A DNA stretch of 64,000 bases from Thraustochytrium sp. TN22 (lineage: Eukaryota > Sar > Bigyra > Thraustochytrida > Thraustochytriidae), in assembly GCA_013306675.1 (NCBI GenBank), contig JABLUY010000017.1, positions 1-64,000 of the forward strand. The letters are read 5' to 3'. A model generated the notes under the pieces. It made no database searches. It had not been told where the DNA came from and saw only the letters and a program-made list of their open reading frames with translations. Positions 15,555 through 28,766 of the stretch are shown piece by piece (the first letter of the stretch is position 1; each line of letters begins with the position of its first letter). A program made the translations under genes and the position numbers.

Positions 15555-17150
15555 TTACAGGCGAGAGCCGAGCTTAAAGGCCTCCTTGTCGAGGCCATGC
15601 AGGTGCCACCAGAACTCGGTGCATGTACGCGACCAGTTGTTGATGACGATGCCATCCTTGGTCTTGTACCACGAGGTGCAGCGCGGATCGGCCCAGGAGG
15701 TGTGCTGAAGCTCCTGCTGGAGGCGCTCGGTGTCCTCAATGTAGGCCTCCTGCGTGACCTCGGTGGTGGCCGCGCCGGCGTCGACCAAGCGCTTCAGCTG
15801 GCGCACCACGTACCCGACTTGGGTCTCGACCTGGAAGATGATGGAGTTGTGGCCGAGGTTGGAGCCCGGGCCGTAGAGGAAGAAGAGGTTGGGAAAGGTG
15901 GGCACCGCGATGGACTTGAATGCCTTGGGGTAAGTGTCACGCCAAAAGTCCTGGAGCGCAACACCCTTACCGTTCCGGATGTCGAGCTCGCTCATGAAGG
16001 CGTTGGCATGGAAGCCAGTGGCGTAGATGATGATGTCAGTCTCCTCAGTGGAGCCGTCATCGTACTCGACGCCGTTGGGGAGGACGCGCGCGATGTTCTT
16101 GTTGGTGACGAGATCGACGTCGCTGCGCGCCAGCATGGGGAGCCAATTGTTGGCGAAGATGATGCGCTTGCATCCGAGGTCGTACTCGGGCACGATGACC
16201 TCCTTGGGGTACTTGTATTGGCTGTCCTCGAGCATGTCGTTGATGGCCTGCTCCCGGGCAGTGTGGTAGATGGGAGCAAGGCGGCTTTCCGGGCCTGCAA
16301 TGAAGCTGAAGGCGAGCTCGGACTGGAAGAAGAGGAAGGAGCGGTATGCCTGGCGCGCCAGGGGCACGTACTTGAAGATGGCCTTGGCAGTCTCCGAGTA
16401 GACATAGTCCTCCTTGCGCATGAACCAGTTGGGCGAGCGCTGGATGATGGTGAGGTGGCTAGCCTTTTCGGCCAGCACTGGGTAGGCCTGAATGGCGGTG
16501 GCGCCGGCGCCAACGCCGATAATGCGCTTGCCCGTGACGTCCACGTCGTTGCGCCAGCGCGCCGTGTGCCAGGACTCGCCCTGGAAGTCCTCCATGCCGG
16601 GGAAGTCCGGCATGCGCGGGATGCCGAGCTGGCCGGTGGCCGGCACAAAGGCCGTGAAAGCGTCCTCGCGCACCGTGCCGTCCGCGTAGCGCACCTTGAG
16701 GAGCCACTTCTTGGAGCTGTCGTCGAAGGTGGCGCTCAGAATGTCGGAGCCGAAGTGCGCGTGCTGTTTGAGGCCGTGCTTTGCCGCGACGCTCTCGAAG
16801 TAGGCGAGGATCTCGTCGCGCTTGGCCCACTTGCGGGTCCAGTCCGACTTGGGCTCGAAGGAGAACGAGTACACATGCGAGGGCACGTCGCAGCCGCAGT
16901 CCGGATACTCGTTCACGCGCCAGGTGCCACCGAAGCCGTCCATGCGCTCGAAGATGGTGAACGGGATGCCTGCGTCCTGCAGCTTGATGGCCAGGCAGAT
17001 GCCGCTCATGCCGCCGCCCAGGATGGCCACGCGCACGCCCTGCACCGCGCTGCGCTCCTGCCGAGCAGCGCGCTCCACGGACTCGCTGTACTTTTGCCAC
17101 AGGTACGCCACGCCCGCTGCGCTCGCCGCCGTCGTCAGCCGCGACGGCAT
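15555..17150 (-). CDS. Flavin-containing / Baeyer-Villiger-type monooxygenase, copy 1
   Basis: A 531-residue NADPH- and FAD-dependent monooxygenase. Near the N terminus is the FAD Rossmann motif (VAILGGGMSG, residues 41-50). Next comes the fingerprint FQGESWHTARW, matching F-x-G-x-x-x-H-x-x-x-W of Baeyer-Villiger/FMO enzymes, then the NADPH Rossmann motif GVGAGATAIQ, and the late ATGFHANAF motif. A short Ala-rich hydrophobic stretch at residues 6-18 may be a membrane anchor. Start 17150 (MPSRLT) is preferred because it aligns with the neighbouring paralogue's MPSKLA; an ATG 16 codons upstream (17198) is possible. The substrate cannot be deduced. It is same-strand tandem with the next gene, 862 bp apart. 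Confidence 0.93.
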   Translation of the reverse strand: MPSRLTTAASAAGVAYLWQKYSESVERAARQERSAVQGVRVAILGGGMSGICLAIKLQDAGIPFTIFERMDGFGGTWRVNEYPDCGCDVPSHVYSFSFEPKSDWTRKWAKRDEILAYFESVAAKHGLKQHAHFGSDILSATFDDSSKKWLLKVRYADGTVREDAFTAFVPATGQLGIPRMPDFPGMEDFQGESWHTARWRNDVDVTGKRIIGVGAGATAIQAYPVLAEKASHLTIIQRSPNWFMRKEDYVYSETAKAIFKYVPLARQAYRSFLFFQSELAFSFIAGPESRLAPIYHTAREQAINDMLEDSQYKYPKEVIVPEYDLGCKRIIFANNWLPMLARSDVDLVTNKNIARVLPNGVEYDDGSTEETDIIIYATGFHANAFMSELDIRNGKGVALQDFWRDTYPKAFKSIAVPTFPNLFFLYGPGSNLGHNSIIFQVETQVGYVVRQLKRLVDAGAATTEVTQEAYIEDTERLQQELQHTSWADPRCTSWYKTKDGIVINNWSRTCTEFWWHLHGLDKEAFKLGSRL

Positions 17151-18012: not shown

Positions 18013-19623
18013 TTAGAGGCGGGCGCCGAGTTGCTGCATACCGCCGAGCTGGAAGTCGTCCTTGTCAAGGCCGCCGAGGTGCCACCAAAATGCGGAGACC
18101 GGGCCCGACCAGTTGTTGATGATGATGCCGTCCGGGCGCTTGTACCAGGAGGTGCACTTGGGGTCGGCCCAGGTGGTCTGTTGGAGGTTGCGCTGGAGGC
18201 GCTCGTTGTCGGCGATGTAGGCGTCCTCGTTGACCTCGATGGTGGCAGCGCCAGTGTCGACGGCGCGGCAGATTTGGCGCACGATGTACTCAACCTGGGT
18301 CTCGACCATGAAGATGATGGAGTGGTGGCCGAGGTTGGAGCCCGGGCCATAGGTGAAGAAGAAGTTGGGGAACTTGGGGACGGTGACGGACTTGTAGGCC
18401 ATCGGGTAGTCGCTCCAGAAGTCCTGAAGGTTGAGGCCCTCGCCGTTGACGATGTCGAGCTGGCCGAGGAAGCGGTGCGAGGCGAAGCCGGTGGCGTAGA
18501 TGAGGACGTCGACGTCCTCGGTGGAGCCGTCGTCGTACTCCACGCCGTTGGGCAGGACGCGCACAACGCGCTTGTCAGTGACGAGATCGACGTGGTCGCG
18601 CGCCAGCATGGGCATCCAGCGGTCGGCGAGGATGACGCGCTTGCAGCCGAGCGCGTAGTCCGGCACGAGCGTCTCCTTGGGGTACTTGTACTTGGAATCC
18701 TCCATCATGCCATCGGTGAACATCTCCTTGACCATGGAGTAGAACGCCGGGGCGCGGCCGTTGGGGCCCTCCAGCAGCACGTAGAGCATCTCCTGGAAGG
18801 AGTTGAGGTACTGGCGGTAGGCCAGACGCGCGAAAGGCACATACTTAAAGACGGCCTTGGTGGCGTCCGAGTACTCAAAGTCCTCCTTGCGCGTGAACCA
18901 GTTGGGTGAGCGCTGCACCACGGTCAGGTGCGCGGCATCGTCAGCCACGACGGGGAAGGCTTGGATGGCCGTGGCGCCGGCTCCGATGCCCATGACGCGC
19001 TTGCCCTTGAAGTCGACATCGTGGCGCCACTGGTTCGTGTGGAAGGTCGGGCCCTCAAACTGGTCCATGCCCGGGATGTCCGGGAACTTGGGAATGGTGA
19101 GCTGGCCCAGCGTCGGGATGAAGTACGAGAAGGCCTCCTCGCGCTCCGTGCCGTCCGCGTACTTGACCTTGACGAACCACTTCTTGGAGTCATGGTCGAA
19201 GCGACCGCCCTGCACGCTCGTGTTGAAGTGCGTGTGCTTCTTGAGGCCGTGCTTGGCGGCCACCTCCTCGAAGTACTCGAGAATCTCCTCGCGCTTGGCC
19301 CACTTGCGGCTCCAGTCCGCCTTGGGCTCGAACGAGTACGAGTACAGGTGCACCGGCACATCACACGCGCAGTCCGGGTACTGGTTGATGCGCCACGTGC
19401 CGCCATAGCCGTCCGCCCGCTCGAAGATCGTGAACGGGATGCCGGCTTGCTGCAGCTTCACCGCGAGGCAGATGCCGCTCATGCCGGCGCCCAGGATGCA
19501 CACGCGCGTGCCCTGCACCTCGCACCGCTCCTTGCGCGCTTTCATGTCCGAGTAGTCGCTGTACTGCTTCCATAGGTATGCCGCACCGGCCGCGGCGCCC
19601 GCGGTCGCCAGCTTCGAAGGCAT
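18013..19623 (-). CDS. Flavin-containing / Baeyer-Villiger-type monooxygenase, copy 2
   Basis: A 536-residue paralogue of the gene at 15555-17150, alignable along its whole length including the N terminus (MPSKLATAGAAAGAAYLW) and the C terminus (WWHLGGLDKDDF versus WWHLHGLDKEAF). It carries the FAD motif CILGAGMSGICLA, the fingerprint FEGPTFHTNQW and the NADPH motif GIGAGATAIQ, so both cofactor sites look intact. The last residues differ (extra GGMQQLGARL). The tandem arrangement and clear divergence indicate an old local duplication with possible substrate specialisation. The start is the ATG at 19623; just upstream lies a CTG/CAG microsatellite (19658-19702). Confidence 0.93.
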   Translation of the reverse strand: MPSKLATAGAAAGAAYLWKQYSDYSDMKARKERCEVQGTRVCILGAGMSGICLAVKLQQAGIPFTIFERADGYGGTWRINQYPDCACDVPVHLYSYSFEPKADWSRKWAKREEILEYFEEVAAKHGLKKHTHFNTSVQGGRFDHDSKKWFVKVKYADGTEREEAFSYFIPTLGQLTIPKFPDIPGMDQFEGPTFHTNQWRHDVDFKGKRVMGIGAGATAIQAFPVVADDAAHLTVVQRSPNWFTRKEDFEYSDATKAVFKYVPFARLAYRQYLNSFQEMLYVLLEGPNGRAPAFYSMVKEMFTDGMMEDSKYKYPKETLVPDYALGCKRVILADRWMPMLARDHVDLVTDKRVVRVLPNGVEYDDGSTEDVDVLIYATGFASHRFLGQLDIVNGEGLNLQDFWSDYPMAYKSVTVPKFPNFFFTYGPGSNLGHHSIIFMVETQVEYIVRQICRAVDTGAATIEVNEDAYIADNERLQRNLQQTTWADPKCTSWYKRPDGIIINNWSGPVSAFWWHLGGLDKDDFQLGGMQQLGARL

Positions 19624-19952: not shown

Positions 19953-19968
19953 AATAGATGAGATGCGC
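19953..19968 (+). repeat. Left terminal inverted repeat of the transposon
   Basis: AATAGATGAGATGCGC, perfectly inverted at 25321-25336. The core GATGAGATGCGC (12 bp) would leave TA on both flanks as a target duplication. Confidence 0.88.
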
Positions 19969-20051
19969 TGGGCGAAAATCCAAAAAAACGCCTCCAGCCT
20001 ACCCCCCCCCCCGCCTGCCCGGGCGCCGGCCGAAAGTCAGGGCGGACAGAA

Positions 20052-20063
20052 GTGGCGCTTCAG
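20052..20063 (+). repeat. Left subterminal inverted repeat
   Basis: GTGGCGCTTCAG, inverted at 25214-25225. The distance to the outer end is 99 bases on the left and 111 on the right. It could be an internal transposase-binding site, by analogy with the subterminal motifs of other DNA transposons (inference). Confidence 0.7.
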
Positions 20064-20324
20064 CGCCTCTTGCGCCTTGCCAGAGACATAACGAAGGGCG
20101 GAGGACTCACGCGCGCGGGCTGCAGCGCACGCTGCGTGGCGGGCGCGCAGCGCGGGCAGAGGCGTGGGCGCGGGGGGGAGGGAGGTCGTGTTAGGCTCAA
20201 GCCCTGCGGTTGGCCCTGGCGCGCTCGTAGCCGGTCAGGCAAGAGACCGGAGGGAGCCCTGGACGCACGTGGTCGTTAGGTTGACGCCAAGCCGAAGACC
20301 TCGCTCAAGACACGCCTGGATGAC

Positions 20325-22550
20325 ATGGCGCGCACTCCAAGCATCTGCGTGGTGACCTCGGATGCTGGGCTCAGCCCGGACAAGGTCTTAGAGCCTGCCG
20401 GAGCACAGGCGTCGCCACCGGCGTCACGGTGCACGTGCGAGTTGGCGTGGTGCCAAGCGAAAGACGGTATCTTCCGCACGAGCCAGATCTACAGGAAACG
20501 ACGTTTTCGCGGGGTGGTCTCGAAGAACGCGGAGACGGACTCTGACAAGCAGGATCAGCGTGCGCGAGACCGAATCTTCACCAAGCTGCGGCCGAAGTCT
20601 CAAGCCGAGCTGTCGCCCAACACGAGGGCGCGATTCCGGTGGCACCACTTCCGCCCAGAGTCCTTTCGCTTCGACGAGAAGAAGGGCGACTGGGTTTTGA
20701 AGACGAGCTCGATCACTCAGGTGATAGCGATGGAGACCATGATGACACCGCCACCAACTCGCGAACCAGCCGTGTGGAACTCGAGCAGGTGGGTTCTTCA
20801 ACACGAGAGTGCCACGCCGACTTCAACGGCGGAGCGAAGACTCGCGAGTCAAGTTGCGTCTCCGGAACGCAAGGCTCTTGGGCGCCGCGCTCATTCGGCC
20901 GCTCGTGCAGCCGAAAGTGATCGGGAGCACGCGCAGCAGCAGCTGGAGAAGAAGAGAAAGGCCGAGACTGCCCTCGCGCTGCGACGAGCAACGGAGGCCG
21001 AGGCGAAGCTGTCACGCCAAGTTCACGAAGCTAGCGTCGCAGAGTCTAGAATCAGGGCAAACTCGGAGCTGACAGTGGCGGCTTCTGTATCCCGCCAGAT
21101 GCTGAAATTCAAGGAGATGATGAAGGCGAGGAATGCTGCCAAGGGTTCTCAGCGTTCGGCAGAAAAGGCCACCTTCGACGCGATCGTCCTGGACCTGAAA
21201 GCCGACAAGGCAAAGCTTAAAGCCGACAAGGCAAAGCTAGAGCACGACAAGGCGAAGCTGCAGGCCGACAAGGCGAAGCTGCAGGCCGACAAGGCGAAGC
21301 TGGAGGCCGACATGGCCTTGTTTCAGTCGATGTTAGCTTGCGCCGACACCGAGAAAGAGAAGATCAGGGCGAGCACGGTTGATGCCGAGGCACGGATCAA
21401 AGCTCTGCAGACGGAACTCTCCCACTCAAAGGCGGCCAACGAAGAGAACGAGCAGGTGATCAAGATTCTCAGTGCGACTCGCACTGAGGCAGACCCTCTT
21501 CGGTGGAACGTGTTCAAGTCAACACGGCGCTTCGCCGACAAGATCAAGTTCTATACTGGGGTGTCAAGTGTCAAATGCTTCGAAAAATTGGTTTCGCTCG
21601 CTCGCGTCGCTGGTGGAGACGACGCCCTGCAGCGCCCTGCAAGCACCGCGGCCTGGAAGGCTTTCAAGGAGGGCAATAGGGACTTAAAGCCCCAGTACGT
21701 GAGCACCAGAATGACGTCCAAGTCCGCCTCAACCAGCGCGTCGTGCCGGAGTAGCGCAGCCCGCCTCGTGCTCGAAGATCGCCTTCTCATGACGCTGATG
21801 ATCCTGCGCCTGAACCTGAGCCAGGTAGTAATCGGATCGCTGTTCGGCGTGAACCAGGGCACAGTCTCGCGCAACTTCGAGTTCGGGATCCAGACGCTGT
21901 ACGAGGTCTTCAGCCATGGCTTGGAGACACCTGACTCAGAGATGCTGAAAGCGTCCTGCCCCGACAAGGTCAAGAAAAAGTTCGGGAATCACATGATCAG
22001 CTGGCTCCTCGACGCGACGGAGCTCGAGATTCAGGTCCCCGATAACCCTCTAGCGCAGAGTGCGACCTGGAGCGAGTATAAGTCGCGCAACACTGCGAAG
22101 CTGCTCTTAGGTTTGACTCCTAGCGGCTACGTTGGTTGGGCTTCCCAGGCCTACCCGGGCAGGATCTCCGATCCTGTGATCACGGAGCGCTCGGGGTTCT
22201 ACTCGGAGTGTGTGCACCCAACTCAAACCATCATGGCGGACAAGGGCTTCATGTTGCATGCGCCGCTGGCCAGCCGTGGTGCGCAGCTCTACGTTCCGCC
22301 CAAGCGATTCAAGGGTCAAAAGGTGCTGTCTCAAAGCGAGGCAAACGATACCCGCAAGATTGCCAACTTTCGCATTCACGTGGAGCGAGCAATTAACCGT
22401 GTCAAGGACTTCCATTGGCTCACGAGTAAGGTTGCACTCCACCAAGCTGACCTGATTACACCTGCCTTCAAGGTCGCTTGCTACATCACTGCACTATGCG
22501 GCCCTCCAATCACCGCACCTTCAAACACCGCATCAAGCGGAAAAAAATGA
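20325..22550 (+). CDS. Harbinger-type DDE transposase with THAP-like finger and coiled coil
   Basis: A 741-residue protein predicted to cut and join the element's ends in the nucleus. Residues about 36-115 look like a THAP zinc finger (C-x4-C near residue 39, then WHHFRPESF), but the usual C-x2-H near the end reads R-x2-H, so one ligand may be missing or supplied elsewhere. A long charged coiled coil follows (about 195-400), including about five heptads of the form KADKAKL (residues about 292-330, nt 21198-21312). A helix-turn-helix-like segment (LNLSQVVIGSLFGVNQGTVSR) precedes the catalytic core. Candidate DDE residues are Asp563 (LLDATE), Asp639 (MADKGF) and Glu687 (HVERAI), with family-typical motifs such as YPGRISD between them. 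The ATG at 20325 is the first in frame; an upstream exon cannot be excluded. The stop is four bases from the convergent SWIM gene's stop. Confidence 0.9.
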   Translation: MARTPSICVVTSDAGLSPDKVLEPAGAQASPPASRCTCELAWCQAKDGIFRTSQIYRKRRFRGVVSKNAETDSDKQDQRARDRIFTKLRPKSQAELSPNTRARFRWHHFRPESFRFDEKKGDWVLKTSSITQVIAMETMMTPPPTREPAVWNSSRWVLQHESATPTSTAERRLASQVASPERKALGRRAHSAARAAESDREHAQQQLEKKRKAETALALRRATEAEAKLSRQVHEASVAESRIRANSELTVAASVSRQMLKFKEMMKARNAAKGSQRSAEKATFDAIVLDLKADKAKLKADKAKLEHDKAKLQADKAKLQADKAKLEADMALFQSMLACADTEKEKIRASTVDAEARIKALQTELSHSKAANEENEQVIKILSATRTEADPLRWNVFKSTRRFADKIKFYTGVSSVKCFEKLVSLARVAGGDDALQRPASTAAWKAFKEGNRDLKPQYVSTRMTSKSASTSASCRSSAARLVLEDRLLMTLMILRLNLSQVVIGSLFGVNQGTVSRNFEFGIQTLYEVFSHGLETPDSEMLKASCPDKVKKKFGNHMISWLLDATELEIQVPDNPLAQSATWSEYKSRNTAKLLLGLTPSGYVGWASQAYPGRISDPVITERSGFYSECVHPTQTIMADKGFMLHAPLASRGAQLYVPPKRFKGQKVLSQSEANDTRKIANFRIHVERAINRVKDFHWLTSKVALHQADLITPAFKVACYITALCGPPITAPSNTASSGKK

Positions 22551-22553
22551 TCT

Positions 22554-23756
22554 TTACCACATGTCAGGACTCTCGTCAGAGTGCTCGTCGAAGATGGGAT
22601 CGAGGGCCAACTCGGTGGATTCGTCGATGGGGAGCTGGTCGAGGCCGGTTCTGCGTAGCTCCGCAGCAGCACGGTCCTTCCAGAAATTCTTGGACACGAA
22701 ACCGTTCAGCACCGGCGTAAACATTTGCGAGGCGGCAGACTCCCCACCTGGGCATGTCTCTGCGCCCGCCGCGATGCACTCAGCTAATGCTTTCACGTAG
22801 TTGCTGTTGCGGCCCCTCTCGGCGATGTCGCGCAGTGTTGCAGCATGGACCTCGGGAGGAAACGGGTTGTACTCGAGTCGGCCAAGAGTGTTCTGCCGGC
22901 AGACGGGTTCGCCGTATCGCCTTTTCTTCGCACGAGGGGTTCGCTGGGCTCGCTCGAAGATGAGGTAGGCGAGGGGGTTATTTACCAGGTCCTCGTCTGC
23001 CTCTTGCCTCGGCCGGTTCCACTCGCACCTCCTGTCGGTGGCAGGGCCGTCTTCACAATGGTCACGTTTGAGGTTTTGGACGGCCTGCAGCAGTGCGCTC
23101 ACATGCACACAGCCGCTGTCGGCACGCGCCGCGGGACACTCGCACATTTGGTCCTTGATCTTGGTGATGACCGGGGGCCGGTTGTTTGGGCGCCACTGGA
23201 CCTCGCATTTGGCGTAGACCTGATACACGCCGTTGACCATTGACCTCGGGCAGAGAAGCCTGAGCCAGCAGGTGTCAGGGAAGCGATCGCCATTGCTCGG
23301 GTAGTAGGCGCCGAATCCGCGCAGGTGTGTGCGGAAGCAGATGCGCTTGTAGCCCTTCTCAAGCACCCCGTCCTTCGTGCATACGTCCTTGAAGTGCGCT
23401 TGCAAGACCGTCTCGGAGACAACTGGCGCGCGCTCTTGCATCTCACCGATGTTCGAGATCCAGTCCTCATTCTGAATGCCCTTGAGCATCGAGCTGACCT
23501 CGGCGTTGTCGATGAGTGGGAGCTCGTGGGTTCTGCGCCCGTTATTGCGCAAGATTTGGAGAGCGCTCAGGACTTCTGGGCAGCGTAAGTTGGTGAGCGC
23601 TTTGTGCTCCTTGCGTGCCTCCTCCTCAACGCGCAGCTGCGTTCGAACATCAGCGTGGAGCTCAGCCACCTTTCTGTTGCCCGGAGACTGACCGCGAGTG
23701 CGAAGTCAGCGAGCCAGCTGCGCTTGCTTGGCCGTATCTACCTCGCTTTCAGCCAT
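22554..23756 (-). CDS. SWIM zinc-finger protein of the transposon (two exons predicted)
   Basis: The main exon is 22554-23669. It contains the SWIM signature C-x-C-x8-C-x-H (CECPA...GCVH, about residue 180), a module that binds DNA or protein and is common in transposon proteins. The frame has no ATG at its start: it opens after a stop and first offers GTG. A small first exon at 23742-23756 (ATG GCT GAA AGC GAG), a GT-AG intron of 72 nt (23670-23741) and phase-0 joining give MAESEVAELHADV and a 376-residue product. This intron is my prediction; its size fits other introns in the window. The first ATG overlaps the end of the nuclease gene by eight bases (ATGGCTGA). Alternatives are initiation at an internal Met (about residue 66), or splicing of this exon onto the nuclease transcript to give a fusion. 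The remainder shows no domain that I recognise; no YqaJ nuclease motif is evident. Confidence 0.75.
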
Positions 23757-25050
23757 CTTGGCCCTCGGTGAGATCGACAGTCTCAAAGCCATCCTGGGGT
23801 TGCACTTTGGTGACCCCGTCACCCACGTCGTGTTGCTTGGACGCACGGCCGTCGCACTCACACGTCCCGCGGAGGCCGTTGCACTCGCAGTCACACGTCT
23901 CGCGGAGGCCGTTGCACTCACACCTCTCGCGGAGGCAACGTAGCCCCAGCGCGATGAGGTCAACGTGATCCCTGTCAAAGCCTGTCTTGCCGACGAGCGC
24001 CGACACGTCGGTCTCGGCCAGCACGTCCAAATCCAGCGAGTCGACCTTTCCCGAGGCGAGGAAGAGCCCAACGCCAGCGAGAAGACCGCCCTTTGCCGTC
24101 TTCATCTGCAAGCAGACTTCCTCCTTCAGCGCCCGGGGCCAACCCATGTGCGCGATGAGCTTGCCGGCGAGCTTCTCGGGCTTGAGCCACTCCGTTACGT
24201 CCACCTGCTCATCAAGAAGCTTGTCGAGGACGCGGAGCGCCGTCAAAGGCCCAACGCCCCTGATGTCGTGGTAGTCAGTCTTGACGAGCAGTGCGTACGC
24301 CAAGCACACGGCAGCCGCCGCAACCTGGGGCTCGCAGTCTTTCTCATCTGCGAGCTCGTCGATGATGTGTCCAAGGTCACGTTGACACGCTTCCCCGGAC
24401 TCTTCGTCCAGAGGCGCTGTAGGTCCGGCAGGCTCGAAGAGGGTTCCCATGCCGGCATGCCAGTCTCCAGAAGGTACGACGAGGAGGTTGCCTCCTTCGT
24501 GCACGAGCATGTCCGAGTCGACCGAGATGATGTATTGAATGGTCTGTTCGCGAAGCATCGCCACGAGAGTGTGGTCTGCCTCGTAAGGCGCCACCACGTA
24601 CGCGAATCCACCCTCGCGCAGCCGCCGAATGACAGCATAGACGAGCTCACGCGAGACGCCGGCGTTGACCTTGGAGAGCTTCTCCAAAAGATCGGGAGGA
24701 GGCTCTTCACCCTTTGCAGCGTGCTCCTGAAGCTGACTTGCTAGGGCGTCGGCCTTGTCCTTGCGCTTCTTGCTTCTCGCCGAGTTTGTACGACACTTCA
24801 TCGGAGTTGGCGCCCCATCAAAGGCAACGATGGGCCTCGCACCCATTCTTTTGAGCTCCGTGAGCCGACTGACAAAGCTCTCCACGGTCTTGGTGAAGTT
24901 CTTCTTCGTGATGTCCTCGTGCATGACACTCACGTACATGTGGAGCCAGACAGAGGCGTCCACGCCGACGTCCTTGTCGGACAAGAGCTCGCAGAGCTTG
25001 ACCTCGCGCGACTTGGATGCCAGAAGCCGCCGAAGGCCAGTAACGCCCAT
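23749..25050 (-). CDS. XPG/FEN1/EXO1-family nuclease carried by the transposon
   Basis: A 433-residue structure-specific 5'-nuclease. The XPG N region starts MGVTGLRRLL and contains Asp31 (VGVDAS) and Asp78 (AFDGAP). The XPG I region has Glu157 and Asp159 (APYEAD) and Asp178 and Asp180 (SVDSDM). Asp259 (KTDYHDIRGVG) leads into the helix-hairpin-helix. All the metal-binding acidic positions expected of FEN1/EXO1 are therefore present. The APYEAD box and spacing resemble EXO1 more than FEN1, and there is no obvious PCNA-binding box. The C terminus has a Cys-rich double repeat (C-E-C-N-G-L-R units; DNA repeats of 27-33 bp at 23860-23935) that might bind metal. Lying inside the inverted repeats and next to the SWIM gene, it is inferred to process element ends, excision gaps or recombination intermediates. 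Confidence 0.9.
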   Translation of the reverse strand: MGVTGLRRLLASKSREVKLCELLSDKDVGVDASVWLHMYVSVMHEDITKKNFTKTVESFVSRLTELKRMGARPIVAFDGAPTPMKCRTNSARSKKRKDKADALASQLQEHAAKGEEPPPDLLEKLSKVNAGVSRELVYAVIRRLREGGFAYVVAPYEADHTLVAMLREQTIQYIISVDSDMLVHEGGNLLVVPSGDWHAGMGTLFEPAGPTAPLDEESGEACQRDLGHIIDELADEKDCEPQVAAAAVCLAYALLVKTDYHDIRGVGPLTALRVLDKLLDEQVDVTEWLKPEKLAGKLIAHMGWPRALKEEVCLQMKTAKGGLLAGVGLFLASGKVDSLDLDVLAETDVSALVGKTGFDRDHVDLIALGLRCLRERCECNGLRETCDCECNGLRGTCECDGRASKQHDVGDGVTKVQPQDGFETVDLTEGQDG

Positions 25051-25213
25051 CCTGGCTGAGAAGCAAGAGGCGCGAACGCAGGCGCGCTGCCCAGCTCTCC
25101 CGGCCCACCCCTGCCGCGCTGCCGCCTTGCTCCGCGCCTCCGCGTCAGCGTCCGCCGCGGCGACTCGAGGCTACAGTTATGTTGGCTCGCGCGTCGCTCG
25201 CGCTGCTCAGAGC

Positions 25214-25225
25214 CTGAAGCGCCAC
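25214..25225 (-). repeat. Right subterminal inverted repeat
   Basis: CTGAAGCGCCAC, the complement of the 12-mer at 20052-20063. Confidence 0.7.
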
Positions 25226-25320
25226 GCGAGAGGTGAACAAAAAAAGGAAAATGCGTTGCGGAAGCCGCAAAGGGGTAGCGGACGAGTCTCCTCGGCGCTC
25301 CCTCCTTGGCGCGGAGGGCG

Positions 25321-25336
25321 GCGCATCTCATCTATT
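25321..25336 (-). repeat. Right terminal inverted repeat of the transposon
   Basis: GCGCATCTCATCTATT, the perfect complement of 19953-19968. The bases beyond (TGTCTTACGG) show no similarity to the left flank other than the possible TA/AT duplication. Confidence 0.88.
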
Positions 25337-27341
25337 GTCTTACGGATAGCGAGCCAAAGCAGAACCACGTGGAGGGTTCCGCCAAGTCCGCCACCTTGCT
25401 CGATCGGGGAACAAACGTGGGCGCGAGCTCAATCAACTTGCGAACTTCGCCACCTCTGCCAGAGAGGTCGAGCAAGTCCGAGCGCCGTCGATCAGTGGCA
25501 GATCCGACGCCAAAGGCCATCAAAGGCCATGCCGAGCGGAATCGATCAGCTTCGTCGCTCTTGCCCCTGGTTCGACCCCGCCGGCTCGGAATCCGACGTG
25601 ACGCAGCCTGGCATCTGGACCGTCGGCGCGCCGCCTGACACGGTCCCCATGTGCAGCGCTGGGTTGCCCACCGTGCGTGCGTTCGTGCCGGCGTCCGACG
25701 CGCCCGTCAGCCGCCGCCAGCCCTCTAGCGCGCGTGGAGAGTGCAAGCCAAAGGGCTCTCGCAAGCAGGCGGGCGGGCGAGCGAGCGAGCGAGCGAGCGA
25801 GCGAGCGAGCGAGCGAGCGAGCGAGCGATCACGAGAGCGAGATGGAGCGAGCCATCGCGCGCGGTGAGTCAGCGGGACACACAGCGAGGGTCGCGGTCCG
25901 ACGCGACCGCCTGGTCCGGCCTGCGGCGGCCAGTGGACACTGGACTGCCAGTGGCAGTGGAGCAGCCGGATCAAACGTCAACACGAGAGAGACGCGGCAC
26001 CCGAGGACACCGATGCGTGAGCCAAGATCTTGCCACGGTGACGGCTCGGCCCAGGCTGCGGCTGGGCTCAGCCTGGCAGGCTGCAAGTGTCAGGCAGCTC
26101 TCTAGCTAGCTACTAGCCAGTTAGCTCTAGCTAGTAGCTAGTCTACAGCTAGCTAGCCAGGCACTGCAAGGCTGGAGCGCGAACAGATCGCACGGACCGG
26201 GCACGCTCAGGCTCAAGATCAGCTCTGTCGCCGCCTGGGGTGGCTTTGGACCGGCGCGCACATCACGGTGCATCTGGCTGGCGCGAAAAGCCTGATTTTC
26301 GTATCGTACGGTGGCGCCGACGACCGCTACGGTAGGCTCGGGAATCGAGGGCCGGGAAGCGACAGGAGCTCACCCGAGCCGAAGAGATACAAGAAGTGAG
26401 CTCAAAGGAGCGCAAAAGAGGCTTCAGAGCGATCACGTGCGGCGGCGGCACGGTCGCAGCGTGGCCGCCATGAGCCGAGACGCGCGAGACGCGAGGCGCG
26501 AGGCGCGCATGCTGCAGACATTTGGACTCCTGCACCTCCCGCGAAGCGCGTGCGGCGGCCCCGCGCGCGACGGGTCGGTTCGCGGGCGGCCCCAAGTTGC
26601 AGTTGCCAAGCCATGGCCGTACGTCCCCACGACGCCTGAGATCGGCTGGCGTGCTCGCCTCGCGTGCGACCCGGTCGCTGGCAGTAGTAGTCCGCTCCGG
26701 GATGGGCTTGGCCGGCGCAGGACTCAGCTGTACGTGGCTTGCAACGAACGACTCGGAGCGTGCAGCAAGAGCGAGCTTCGTCTGTGTAGGTAGGCACATC
26801 GACGATCGGAATTCTGCTATTCTCTGGCGGCGCTGCAGAGGAGGCGAGCGTCACTCTGCCTCTACGGTCATGAGCATTGCCTGCGTGCGGCGCGAATGCG
26901 CGATAAAAGGTTGGAAACCTTGGAAACACACGAGTGCGAGCGCAGGCGTGCGTGATCAGTCACTGACTTTGTGTGCATGGGACGGAGTCCGAGTCTGGCA
27001 GGTGCCCTTGCGTAGCCGAGCGGGTGAGGTGCGCCTGCAACTCACTCTCAAGCGCATGCGGATGAGCCTGGCGGCGCAACGCAAGTGGTTATGTGATCCA
27101 GACCAGCCATCAGCTCGAAAAGCCACCTCATGAAAGGATGCAGAAGAGAAGGTGGCCGAAAGGGAGCAAGCCATCATCATCCTGTCGAGAGACTGCGCTG
27201 AGCTACAGATCCTTTGCAAAGCAAGCGACCTTGTGCAGCTGCTGGCGGACATGTCGTGTCAACGACCGAAAGGAGCGTGGTCACATTGCTCTTGACGAAG
27301 ACTAGGCTACTGGTACTACTGCACCACCACCCAAAAAAAAC
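25337..27341. other. Gene-poor 2-kb region with simple repeats
   Basis: No convincing gene. A (GAGC)n microsatellite occupies about 25783-25829, and a cluster of CTAG/GCTAGC palindromes lies at 26101-26158. The remaining open frames are short, Arg-rich and unlike proteins. Confidence 0.6.
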
Positions 27342-27827: not shown

Positions 27828-28766
27828 ATGAGCTTCGTGCCGCCGACGACGCAGCGGCGGCTGGGCGCGGAGGCGCTGGAGCGGCTGGTGGAGCTCATGG
27901 GGCGGCGACGCACGTGCGTGGTGAGCGGCGCTGGCGTGTCGACGGAAAGCGGCATCCCGGACTACAGGTCGCCAGAGGGCTCGTACAGCCGCGGGCACAA
28001 GCCCATGACGCACCAGGAGTTCATCAAATCGGCGGCGCGGCGCAAGCGGTATTGGGCGCGCGCGGTGGTGGCGCAAAAGCACTTCCGCGACGCGCGGCCG
28101 AACGCGAGCCATCGCGCGCTGGCGGCCCTGGAACACGGCGGACTCGTGTCGCAGGTAGTGACGCAGAACGTGGACCGCCTGCACACCAAGGCCGGGTCGA
28201 ACAATGTGCTGGAGCTGCACGGGCACGGCAGCGGCGTGCACTGCTTGAGCTGCGGCGCGGAGTCTTCGCGGCATGAGTATCAGGACAATCTGTTCGAGAT
28301 GAACAATACGTGGTTTCGCACGCACCTCAACCCGGAGGACATCCCGGACATCCGCGCGGACGGCGACGCGCACCTGGACGTGACGGACTATGACGACTTT
28401 TACGTGCCGAGCTGCGTACAGTGCGGCGGCGTCATCATGCCTACGATCGTCTTCTTCGGCGGCACGGTGCCAGCGGCAGTCAAGGCGGCGTCCTTTGATG
28501 CGGTGCGCGACGCGGACAGCCTGTTGGTCGTTGGCTCGAGCGTGACGGTGTGGTCGAGCTACCGGCTGTGCAAGGCGGCCAAGGACCAGGGCAAGCCCTT
28601 GGGCATCATCAATGTGGGCGACACACGCGCCGACCCGATCGCCGACTTCAAGGTGGACCACGTCACGTGCAGCACGGCGCTCACGGAGGTGGCCGAGGCG
28701 CTGGTCGGGCCTGAGGCGTCTTGGCAGGCCCGTGCGGATGGCGTGCCGCTCGCCTTTGCGCGCTGA
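27828..28766 (+). CDS. Class II sirtuin (SIRT4-like NAD+-dependent deacylase)
   Basis: A 312-residue protein with the NAD-binding motif GAGVSTESGIPDYR (residues 34-47), TQNVDRLH, the catalytic His in LELHGH, two zinc-binding Cys pairs (CLSC and CVQC) and the late GSSVTVWSSYRL motif. The start MSFVPPTTQRR resembles the FVPP start of the mature SIRT4 domain, a mitochondrial enzyme acting on acyl-lysine or as an ADP-ribosyltransferase. The same frame stays open upstream for 79 codons through a poly-Gln (CAG) run and a basic segment; there is no ATG at its beginning, so 27828 is chosen, though a spliced targeting presequence is possible. It is convergent with the gene at 28958. Confidence 0.92.
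   Translation: MSFVPPTTQRRLGAEALERLVELMGRRRTCVVSGAGVSTESGIPDYRSPEGSYSRGHKPMTHQEFIKSAARRKRYWARAVVAQKHFRDARPNASHRALAALEHGGLVSQVVTQNVDRLHTKAGSNNVLELHGHGSGVHCLSCGAESSRHEYQDNLFEMNNTWFRTHLNPEDIPDIRADGDAHLDVTDYDDFYVPSCVQCGGVIMPTIVFFGGTVPAAVKAASFDAVRDADSLLVVGSSVTVWSSYRLCKAAKDQGKPLGIINVGDTRADPIADFKVDHVTCSTALTEVAEALVGPEASWQARADGVPLAFAR

Follow-up and report, generated by a model that had tools for sequence, protein, structure and literature searches.

A mobile DNA transposon, probably of ISL2EU type, that carries an XPG/Rad2-family nuclease gene

Introduction

What is the interval at positions 19953-25336 of the 64,000-nucleotide stretch analysed here, and why should an XPG-family nuclease gene lie between its inverted ends? 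The stretch (hereafter the window) is positions 1-64000 of contig C88 in a genome of 37.9 Mb and 453 contigs, and copies are named below by their contigs. A sequence-only reading had described the interval as a Harbinger-like transposon encoding a DDE transposase, a SWIM protein and an EXO1-type nuclease. We conclude that it is a real, complete and recently mobile DNA transposon, and that it is probably an ISL2EU-type (PHIS superfamily) cut-and-paste element in which the YqaJ partner has been replaced by a nuclease of the XPG/FEN1/EXO1 family. The element ends, the copies, their AT flanks, the gene content and the co-occurrence of these genes in two divergent lineages were observed directly, the nuclease of the second lineage being recognized from its motifs and from a weak match to a profile.

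The element is complete and has moved recently

The 16-bp inverted repeat reported at the two ends is indeed perfect (19953-19968 and 25321-25336), and with up to two mismatches allowed these remain its only two sites in the window, where 0.03 would be expected by chance. Comparison of copies, however, shows that the repeat proper is 13 bp long (AGATGAGATGCGC, 19956-19968 on the plus strand, and 25321-25333 on the minus strand) and that the outer 3 bp consist of one target base and a duplicated AT. Specifically, the aligned ends of C88 and C425 read AAT, then AGATGAGATGCGC...GCGCATCTCATCT, then ATT; C398 has GAT and ATT, and the half-sites are AAT in C24 and ATT in C399 and at the right end of C177. 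The left flank of the window element (19953-19955) is therefore A followed by AT, the right flank (25334-25336) is AT followed by T, and taken together the copies indicate A|AT|T as the target, of which the 2 bp AT are duplicated. The inner 12-mer GTGGCGCTTCAG was likewise confirmed, at 20052-20063 on the plus strand and inverted at 25214-25225 on the minus strand; it is present at both ends in five of eight copies (C88, C398, C425, C177 and C267), and we infer that it is a putative transposase binding site. A second subterminal repeat, GCGCCTCTTGC, lies at 20063-20073 (plus strand) and has its inverted partner at 25063-25073 (minus strand).

Searching the genome with the element ends, the check proposed together with the original description, brought up further copies with differing flanks. 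C425 and C398 are near-identical to the window element (99.7% over 5,385 bp and 99.5% over 5,383 bp, respectively), C177 is 100% identical over 5,335 bp with the stretch to its left reading N, and C267 is an older full-length copy (95.6% identical). C73 retains the SWIM-like and nuclease frames in a right half that is 95.7% identical over 2,829 bp, C111 and C291 are decayed copies, and two contigs stop inside an element, at its left end in C24 and at its right end in C399. The end region of C73 is duplicated: the element end and a similar flank occur twice, at 2596 and 5537 of the examined stretch and thus 2.9 kb apart, and this repeat is a duplication that takes in host sequence. All five full copies (the five with the 12-mer at both ends) contain the three genes, in agreement with the proposed gene content. 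The exact 13-bp core occurs at 13 sites in the genome; because 11 of these are ends of identified copies and two are unpaired (C175 and C449), no exact-core pair encloses the transposase alone, an arrangement that had been named as evidence against a three-gene element.

The element encodes a transposase, an XPG/Rad2-family nuclease and a SWIM-like protein

The three ORFs (open reading frames) have the positions originally given, with products of 741 amino acids on the plus strand and 311 and 433 amino acids on the minus strand. The 741-residue transposase (20325-22550, plus strand) matches Pfam DDE_Tnp_4 (1.3e-33) and HTH_Tnp_4 (3.5e-12), and D563, D639 and E687 probably constitute its triad. 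Its N-terminus (C.C.....C ... RWHHFRPESF) is THAP-like by eye, without a Pfam THAP match, and is followed by a coiled coil; a PHROGs tail-fibre match that overlaps this coiled coil was set aside.

The 433-residue nuclease (23749-25050, minus strand) matches Pfam XPG_N (2.8e-15; 57 bits, cut-off 22) and XPG_I (3.6e-07; 30.9 bits, cut-off 24.9), Rad2, EXO1 and FEN1 structures in the PDB by sequence, and, below the cut-offs of these models, archaeal FEN-1 and rad2 models. Assignment to the XPG/Rad2 family thus stands, while EXO1 is not singled out among these matches. Seven acidic residues (D31, D78, E157, D159, D178, D180 and D259), which we take to be the catalytic residues of the XPG family, align with those of host EXO1 and FEN1; all seven are kept in C88, C398 and C267, and the C177 nuclease is 100% identical to that of the window. 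XPG_N was found at nine places in the genome, six in element copies and three in host genes that we name by resemblance (XPG-like on C158, FEN1-like on C149 and EXO1-like on C49), and a seventh, broken fragment of the element nuclease lies on C111. The host FEN1, EXO1 and XPG/Rad2 proteins belong to the same family and have the same active-site residues, but they are encoded by single genes elsewhere in the genome and are ~22-35% identical to the element nuclease over the aligned parts. These host genes mark the genome as that of a eukaryote. The element nuclease is not a single-copy host gene lacking terminal repeats, the second arrangement that the sequence-only reading had counted against itself.

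The SWIM-like protein (311 amino acids; 22554-23489, minus strand) is encoded convergently with the transposase and has no Pfam match; its label rests on CxCx8CxH, since we take CxCxnCxH to be the SWIM motif. The 311-residue frame exists as described but is probably not the whole gene, because the frame runs on upstream through a part that is SAP-like by eye (23490-23756, minus strand) to an ATG at 23756. In six of six copies the start of this longer frame and the end of the nuclease gene share 8 bases (ATGGCTGA, 23749-23756, minus strand), an arrangement suggestive of coupled genes. In five of the six (C88, C425, C177, C267 and C73) a TGA followed by CTT (TGA at 23706-23708, minus strand) stops the frame within the SAP-like part; the same codon is TGG in C398, where the frame is open for 400 amino acids, and this longer form has no Pfam match either. 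Readthrough, splicing or an internal start is possible at the TGA. We also noted that C398 differs at ~8 further residues near the TGG, as if this stretch came from another element.

A second lineage appears to have the same parts in a single frame

The search with the window transposase also reached C27, with 24% identity over 243 residues inside a frame of 1,520 codons. Read from an MGV start, the C27 protein has the motifs FDFG, MDGA, EAD, LDSD and GND in XPG-family order, beyond them SAP-like and SWIM-like (CxCx6CxH) parts recognized by eye, and then a DDE_Tnp_4 domain (2.6e-10); the SWIM motif thus occurs in both lineages and has a Pfam match in neither. A search with the C27 N-terminus gave 12 matches on seven contigs. 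The single-frame layout of XPG-like, SAP/SWIM-like and DDE parts is present in C27, C404, C277 and C136, with open frames of 1,442 codons in C404 and C277 and 1,451 codons in C136 and with proteins, counted from MGV, of 1,382 (C404), 1,392 (C136) and 1,471 (C27) residues; C413 and C150 are interrupted by stops, and C66 is fragmentary. Over 6,675 bp there is no difference between C404 and C277, whose flanks are unrelated; their ends read AT, then GGACCCTGCGCC...GGCGCAGGGTCC, then AT. These are GGACCCTGCGCCG repeats of the form GG...CC with AT on either side. Judged by these end sequences, GG termini with an AT duplication are the ISL2EU pattern. This lineage also has a convergent 432-codon ORF with a THAP-like motif and a coiled coil, both by eye, and no meaningful Pfam match.

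The fused frame is under constraint. Over 1,382 codons, C404 and C136 differ by a synonymous divergence (dS) of 0.22, and the ratio of non-synonymous to synonymous change (omega) is 0.31 overall, or by region 0.29 for the nuclease, 0.41 for the middle/SAP part, 0.23 for SWIM, 0.37 for the linker and 0.29 for DDE. Of note, where the C404 transposase has what is probably its first catalytic Asp, C136 has G. Comparison of the window transposase with the fused alignment in hhalign covered 236 columns (E 1.3e-4), and the fused alignment matched a combined window/EXO1/FEN1 nuclease profile weakly (25.3) with EAD, DSD and ND in register. From its motifs and this weak profile match, the N-terminal region of the fused lineage is very probably an XPG-family nuclease. 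A motif pattern compiled by hand afterwards missed two of three real XPG proteins and does not enter into this assignment.

The element is closest to ISL2EU among known systems

ISL2EU elements are ~4.8 kb long, insert at A|AT|T, encode a transposase with DDE, HTH (helix-turn-helix) and THAP domains, mostly have a YqaJ partner ORF and usually end in GG (Han et al. 2015, PMC4482050, in the parts of the paper available). The element described here resembles them in its DDE/HTH transposase, with a part that is THAP-like by eye, its A|AT|T duplication, its length of ~5 kb and its DNA-binding partner gene, and the fused lineage adds GG...CC termini. It differs in having an XPG-family nuclease instead of YqaJ and in its SWIM-like gene, which is separate in the window family, whereas all parts are fused in the second lineage. 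Because the AT is duplicated in A|AT|T, we place the element with ISL2EU and not with canonical Harbinger elements, which duplicate TWA; of the proposed Harbinger-like assignment, the DDE_Tnp_4 transposase stands. Because Pfam gave no YqaJ match in the window element, we regard it as a variant and not a plain member of the ISL2EU group.

To relate the transposases of this genome to one another, we placed 13 of its DDE domains in a tree, leaving out C277 (identical to C404), C398, C425, C177 (nearly identical to C88) and C396 (partial). The fused lineage fell together with C216 and the window family (support 1.000, on a long branch), and seven other DDE_Tnp_4 proteins, from open frames of 471-785 codons (C233, C398:160163, C63, C30, C387, C36 and C224), lay apart from this nuclease-bearing clade. 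YqaJ had a single match in the genome (C78:69347-69727, 82.5 bits, in a 713-codon frame), on a contig without a DDE_Tnp_4 match; therefore, within the reach of these searches, the genome's ISL2EU-type clade appears to go with XPG-type and not YqaJ-type nucleases.

Nuclease genes are also found in DDE transposons of other superfamilies. AcademX elements have a nuclease of the XPG type. They form a nuclease-encoding lineage of Academ and, in the available text, have duplications of 3 or 4 bp (PMC10045372), compared with 2 bp here; this comparison concerns features and not aligned transposases. KolobokE, D and P, again according to the available text, encode lambda-exonuclease-like, DEDDh and His-Me nucleases and exemplify repeated nuclease acquisition (PMC9587614); they share with the present element a nuclease-bearing DDE lineage but belong to a superfamily with TTAA duplications and have other nuclease folds. 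The earlier statement that no described element has this combination therefore agrees with the ISL2EU and Harbinger literature searched but has to be set beside AcademX. In that literature we found no ISL2EU or Harbinger element with an XPG nuclease, although Repbase and most subscription journals were outside its scope and an entry may exist there; a word search for XPG found nothing in the available text of PMC9587614, PMC12730594, PMC10045372, PMC9179366 and PMC4482050.

Weighing the alternatives

Several observations weigh against the reading of the element as an ISL2EU-type transposon with an exchanged nuclease. As for the ends, the window-family core begins with AG and not with the usual GG; the bases outside the AT in C404 and C277 are A/G and C/T and not those of A|AT|T; and C267, outside an intact 13-bp core, reads CC and GA and has no AT on either side, although the same observation makes it improbable that AT belongs to the element itself. 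We searched the genome for empty sites with four joined flank pairs and found none (the 13 matches were the eight flanks themselves and five short repeats, none spanning a junction), so that the AT duplication rests on the comparison of copies. The 12-mer was not found with up to one mismatch in the decayed C73, C111 and C291, and with up to two mismatches there was none in the examined C73 stretch and only scattered ones in C111. As for the two lineages, the long branch that joins them may be an artefact. The fused nuclease region had no match in Pfam, phmmer or the PDB profile search and is not among the nine XPG_N matches of the genome; in hhalign, neither the window nuclease nor the window SWIM-like protein gave a significant match to the fused alignment; and in 200 column shuffles of the weak profile match (mean 15.3, standard deviation 2.6) one exceeded 25.3, at 26.6. 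Finally, no relative beyond this genome was confirmed among viral contigs (searched with the nuclease, the transposase, the fused N-terminus, the C27 SWIM-DDE part and the SWIM-like protein), genome contigs (searched with the nuclease) or phages (by tblastn), negatives that say little because the collections were viral or prokaryotic.

Selection in the window family points partly the same way. With p-values calculated from a neutral proportion of 0.766 set by hand, constraint is weak for the transposase (omega 0.55-0.56 in the C267 pairs; C88-C267, 19 synonymous and 34 non-synonymous changes, omega 0.55, p 0.05) and also for the nuclease (omega 0.21-0.82 over 10 pairs; C398-C267, 14 and 18 changes, omega 0.40, p 0.01; C88-C267, 8 and 14 changes, omega 0.54, p 0.20), and it is not evident for the SWIM-like protein (omega 0.87-2.06 over five defined pairs; C88-C267, 3 and 18 changes, omega 1.8, p 0.44).

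Among the alternatives, the strongest is that the window and fused lineages acquired their nucleases independently and did not inherit one nuclease, which we consider somewhat less probable than a common origin. The nuclease regions of the two lineages are not confidently alignable and their layouts differ, a separate gene in one and a fusion in the other; against this, SWIM-like, SAP-like and THAP-like parts, identified by motif or by eye, accompany both nucleases, and the transposases of both lineages form one clade.

It is improbable, by contrast, that the nuclease gene, together with the SWIM-like gene, is a captured passenger that contributes nothing to transposition. Besides the weak constraint on the window-family nuclease, this alternative can draw on the loss of catalytic residues in two of six full-length nuclease frames, E157 in C425, which is a recent full copy, and D78 and D159 in C73, and on decayed or fragmentary relatives (C216, C20, C396, C291 and C434) without a nuclease match. 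C216 has a transposase that is 39% identical and split over two frames, its contig ends ~1.1 kb downstream, and there is no SWIM or nuclease match within the 7.7 kb examined; C396 has a partial transposase and a SWIM remnant and no nuclease match within the 5.8 kb examined. Because both are decayed, we take C216 and C396 as uninformative about the ancestor. The passenger explanation is, however, difficult to reconcile with the retention of the three-gene set in all five full copies, with an XPG-like region that is in frame with the transposase and constrained (omega 0.29) in a lineage with a DDE domain of no more than 24% (C27) or 21% (C404) identity to that of the window family, and with a host that retains its own FEN1, EXO1 and XPG. 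We consider it very probable that the nuclease is part of the transposition machinery. Of note, the E157 loss in C425 lies in a cluster of non-synonymous changes at nuclease codons ~132-157 in a copy that is otherwise 99.7% identical.

It is similarly unlikely that the element is of the Spy type, with longer repeats (ATAGATGAG...) and without a target duplication. If AT is counted into the repeat, the repeat becomes 15 bp long, no duplication is left and the flanks are A and T in most copies; C267 lacks a duplication, and Spy has a transposase of a related group and an AT-rich target. Yet the same C267 has its 13-bp core without AT at either end, C73 has AAT and then GATGAG, and AT lies outside the GG...CC repeats in two of two fused-lineage copies. 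Moreover, Spy elements, as far as the available descriptions go, insert between AAA and TTT without duplication and mostly have one ORF, and the copy flanks here do not show this AAATTT signature.

Least of all do we expect the element to be a canonical PIF/Harbinger transposon with additional, unusual genes. Such a transposon would share the DDE_Tnp_4 family transposase and the AT-rich target but should have a TWA 3-bp duplication and a Myb/SANT partner (PMC4482050, available parts): the flanks do not fit TWA, no Myb/SANT match was found by Pfam (the SWIM-like protein has no match and the nuclease shows XPG domains and weak unrelated ones), and the seven other DDE_Tnp_4 proteins of the genome form a separate group.

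A working model for the nuclease in transposition

Once a DDE transposase has joined the 3' ends, the 5' strands still have to be processed. Enzymes of the FEN1/EXO1 type degrade 5' strands and also remove 5' flaps by cutting; lambda-exonuclease-type and YqaJ-type enzymes likewise act on 5' strands. Because YqaJ-type and EXO1-type enzymes are both 5'-acting, replacement of one by the other would be a like-for-like exchange. Our working hypothesis, which we hold to be rather more probable than its contrary, is that a branch of ISL2EU-type elements swapped YqaJ for a FEN1/EXO1/XPG-family nuclease and that a sub-branch fused the nuclease, the SAP/SWIM-like parts and the DDE domain into one self-contained protein that would cut, join and finish 5' strands. 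In the mechanism that we propose for the window element, the THAP-like and HTH parts of the transposase would direct it to the terminal repeats and the subterminal ones; it would then excise the element and join the 3' ends to AATT with a stagger of 2 bp. The SAP/SWIM-like protein would hold DNA or tether the complex. The XPG-type nuclease would then process the 5' strands by removing 5' flaps where the element has newly inserted, by resecting the 5' ends of the donor break, or by both; after resection, repair from a sister copy could regain the element; to this specific role of flap trimming, donor-break resection or both we assign an even chance.

To our knowledge, no reason is known why ISL2EU elements carry a nuclease. 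The presence of an unrelated 5'-acting nuclease in the YqaJ slot, together with the apparent fusion of such a nuclease to the transposase in the second lineage, argues that 5'-strand processing belongs to transposition and is not an accident of the YqaJ lineage, and the finding makes flap removal, gap filling and donor-break resection in these transposons directly testable. The available text of the 2015 survey reports ISL2EU in animals only (PMC4482050), in contrast to the present genome, which looks like that of a microbial eukaryote with a small genome; should the host be something other than an animal, which its genome suggests, ISL2EU-type elements would reach beyond the range of that survey.

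Sequences flanking the element

To the left of the element, two similar ORFs of 531 and 536 amino acids lie on the minus strand at 15555-17150 and 18013-19623; they resemble what we take to be flavin monooxygenases and presumably represent a tandem gene duplication beside the element. To the right, a (GCGA)15 tandem array occupies 25769-25828, ~430 bp beyond the element end, and a 312-residue ORF at 27828-28766 on the plus strand is sirtuin-like by eye.

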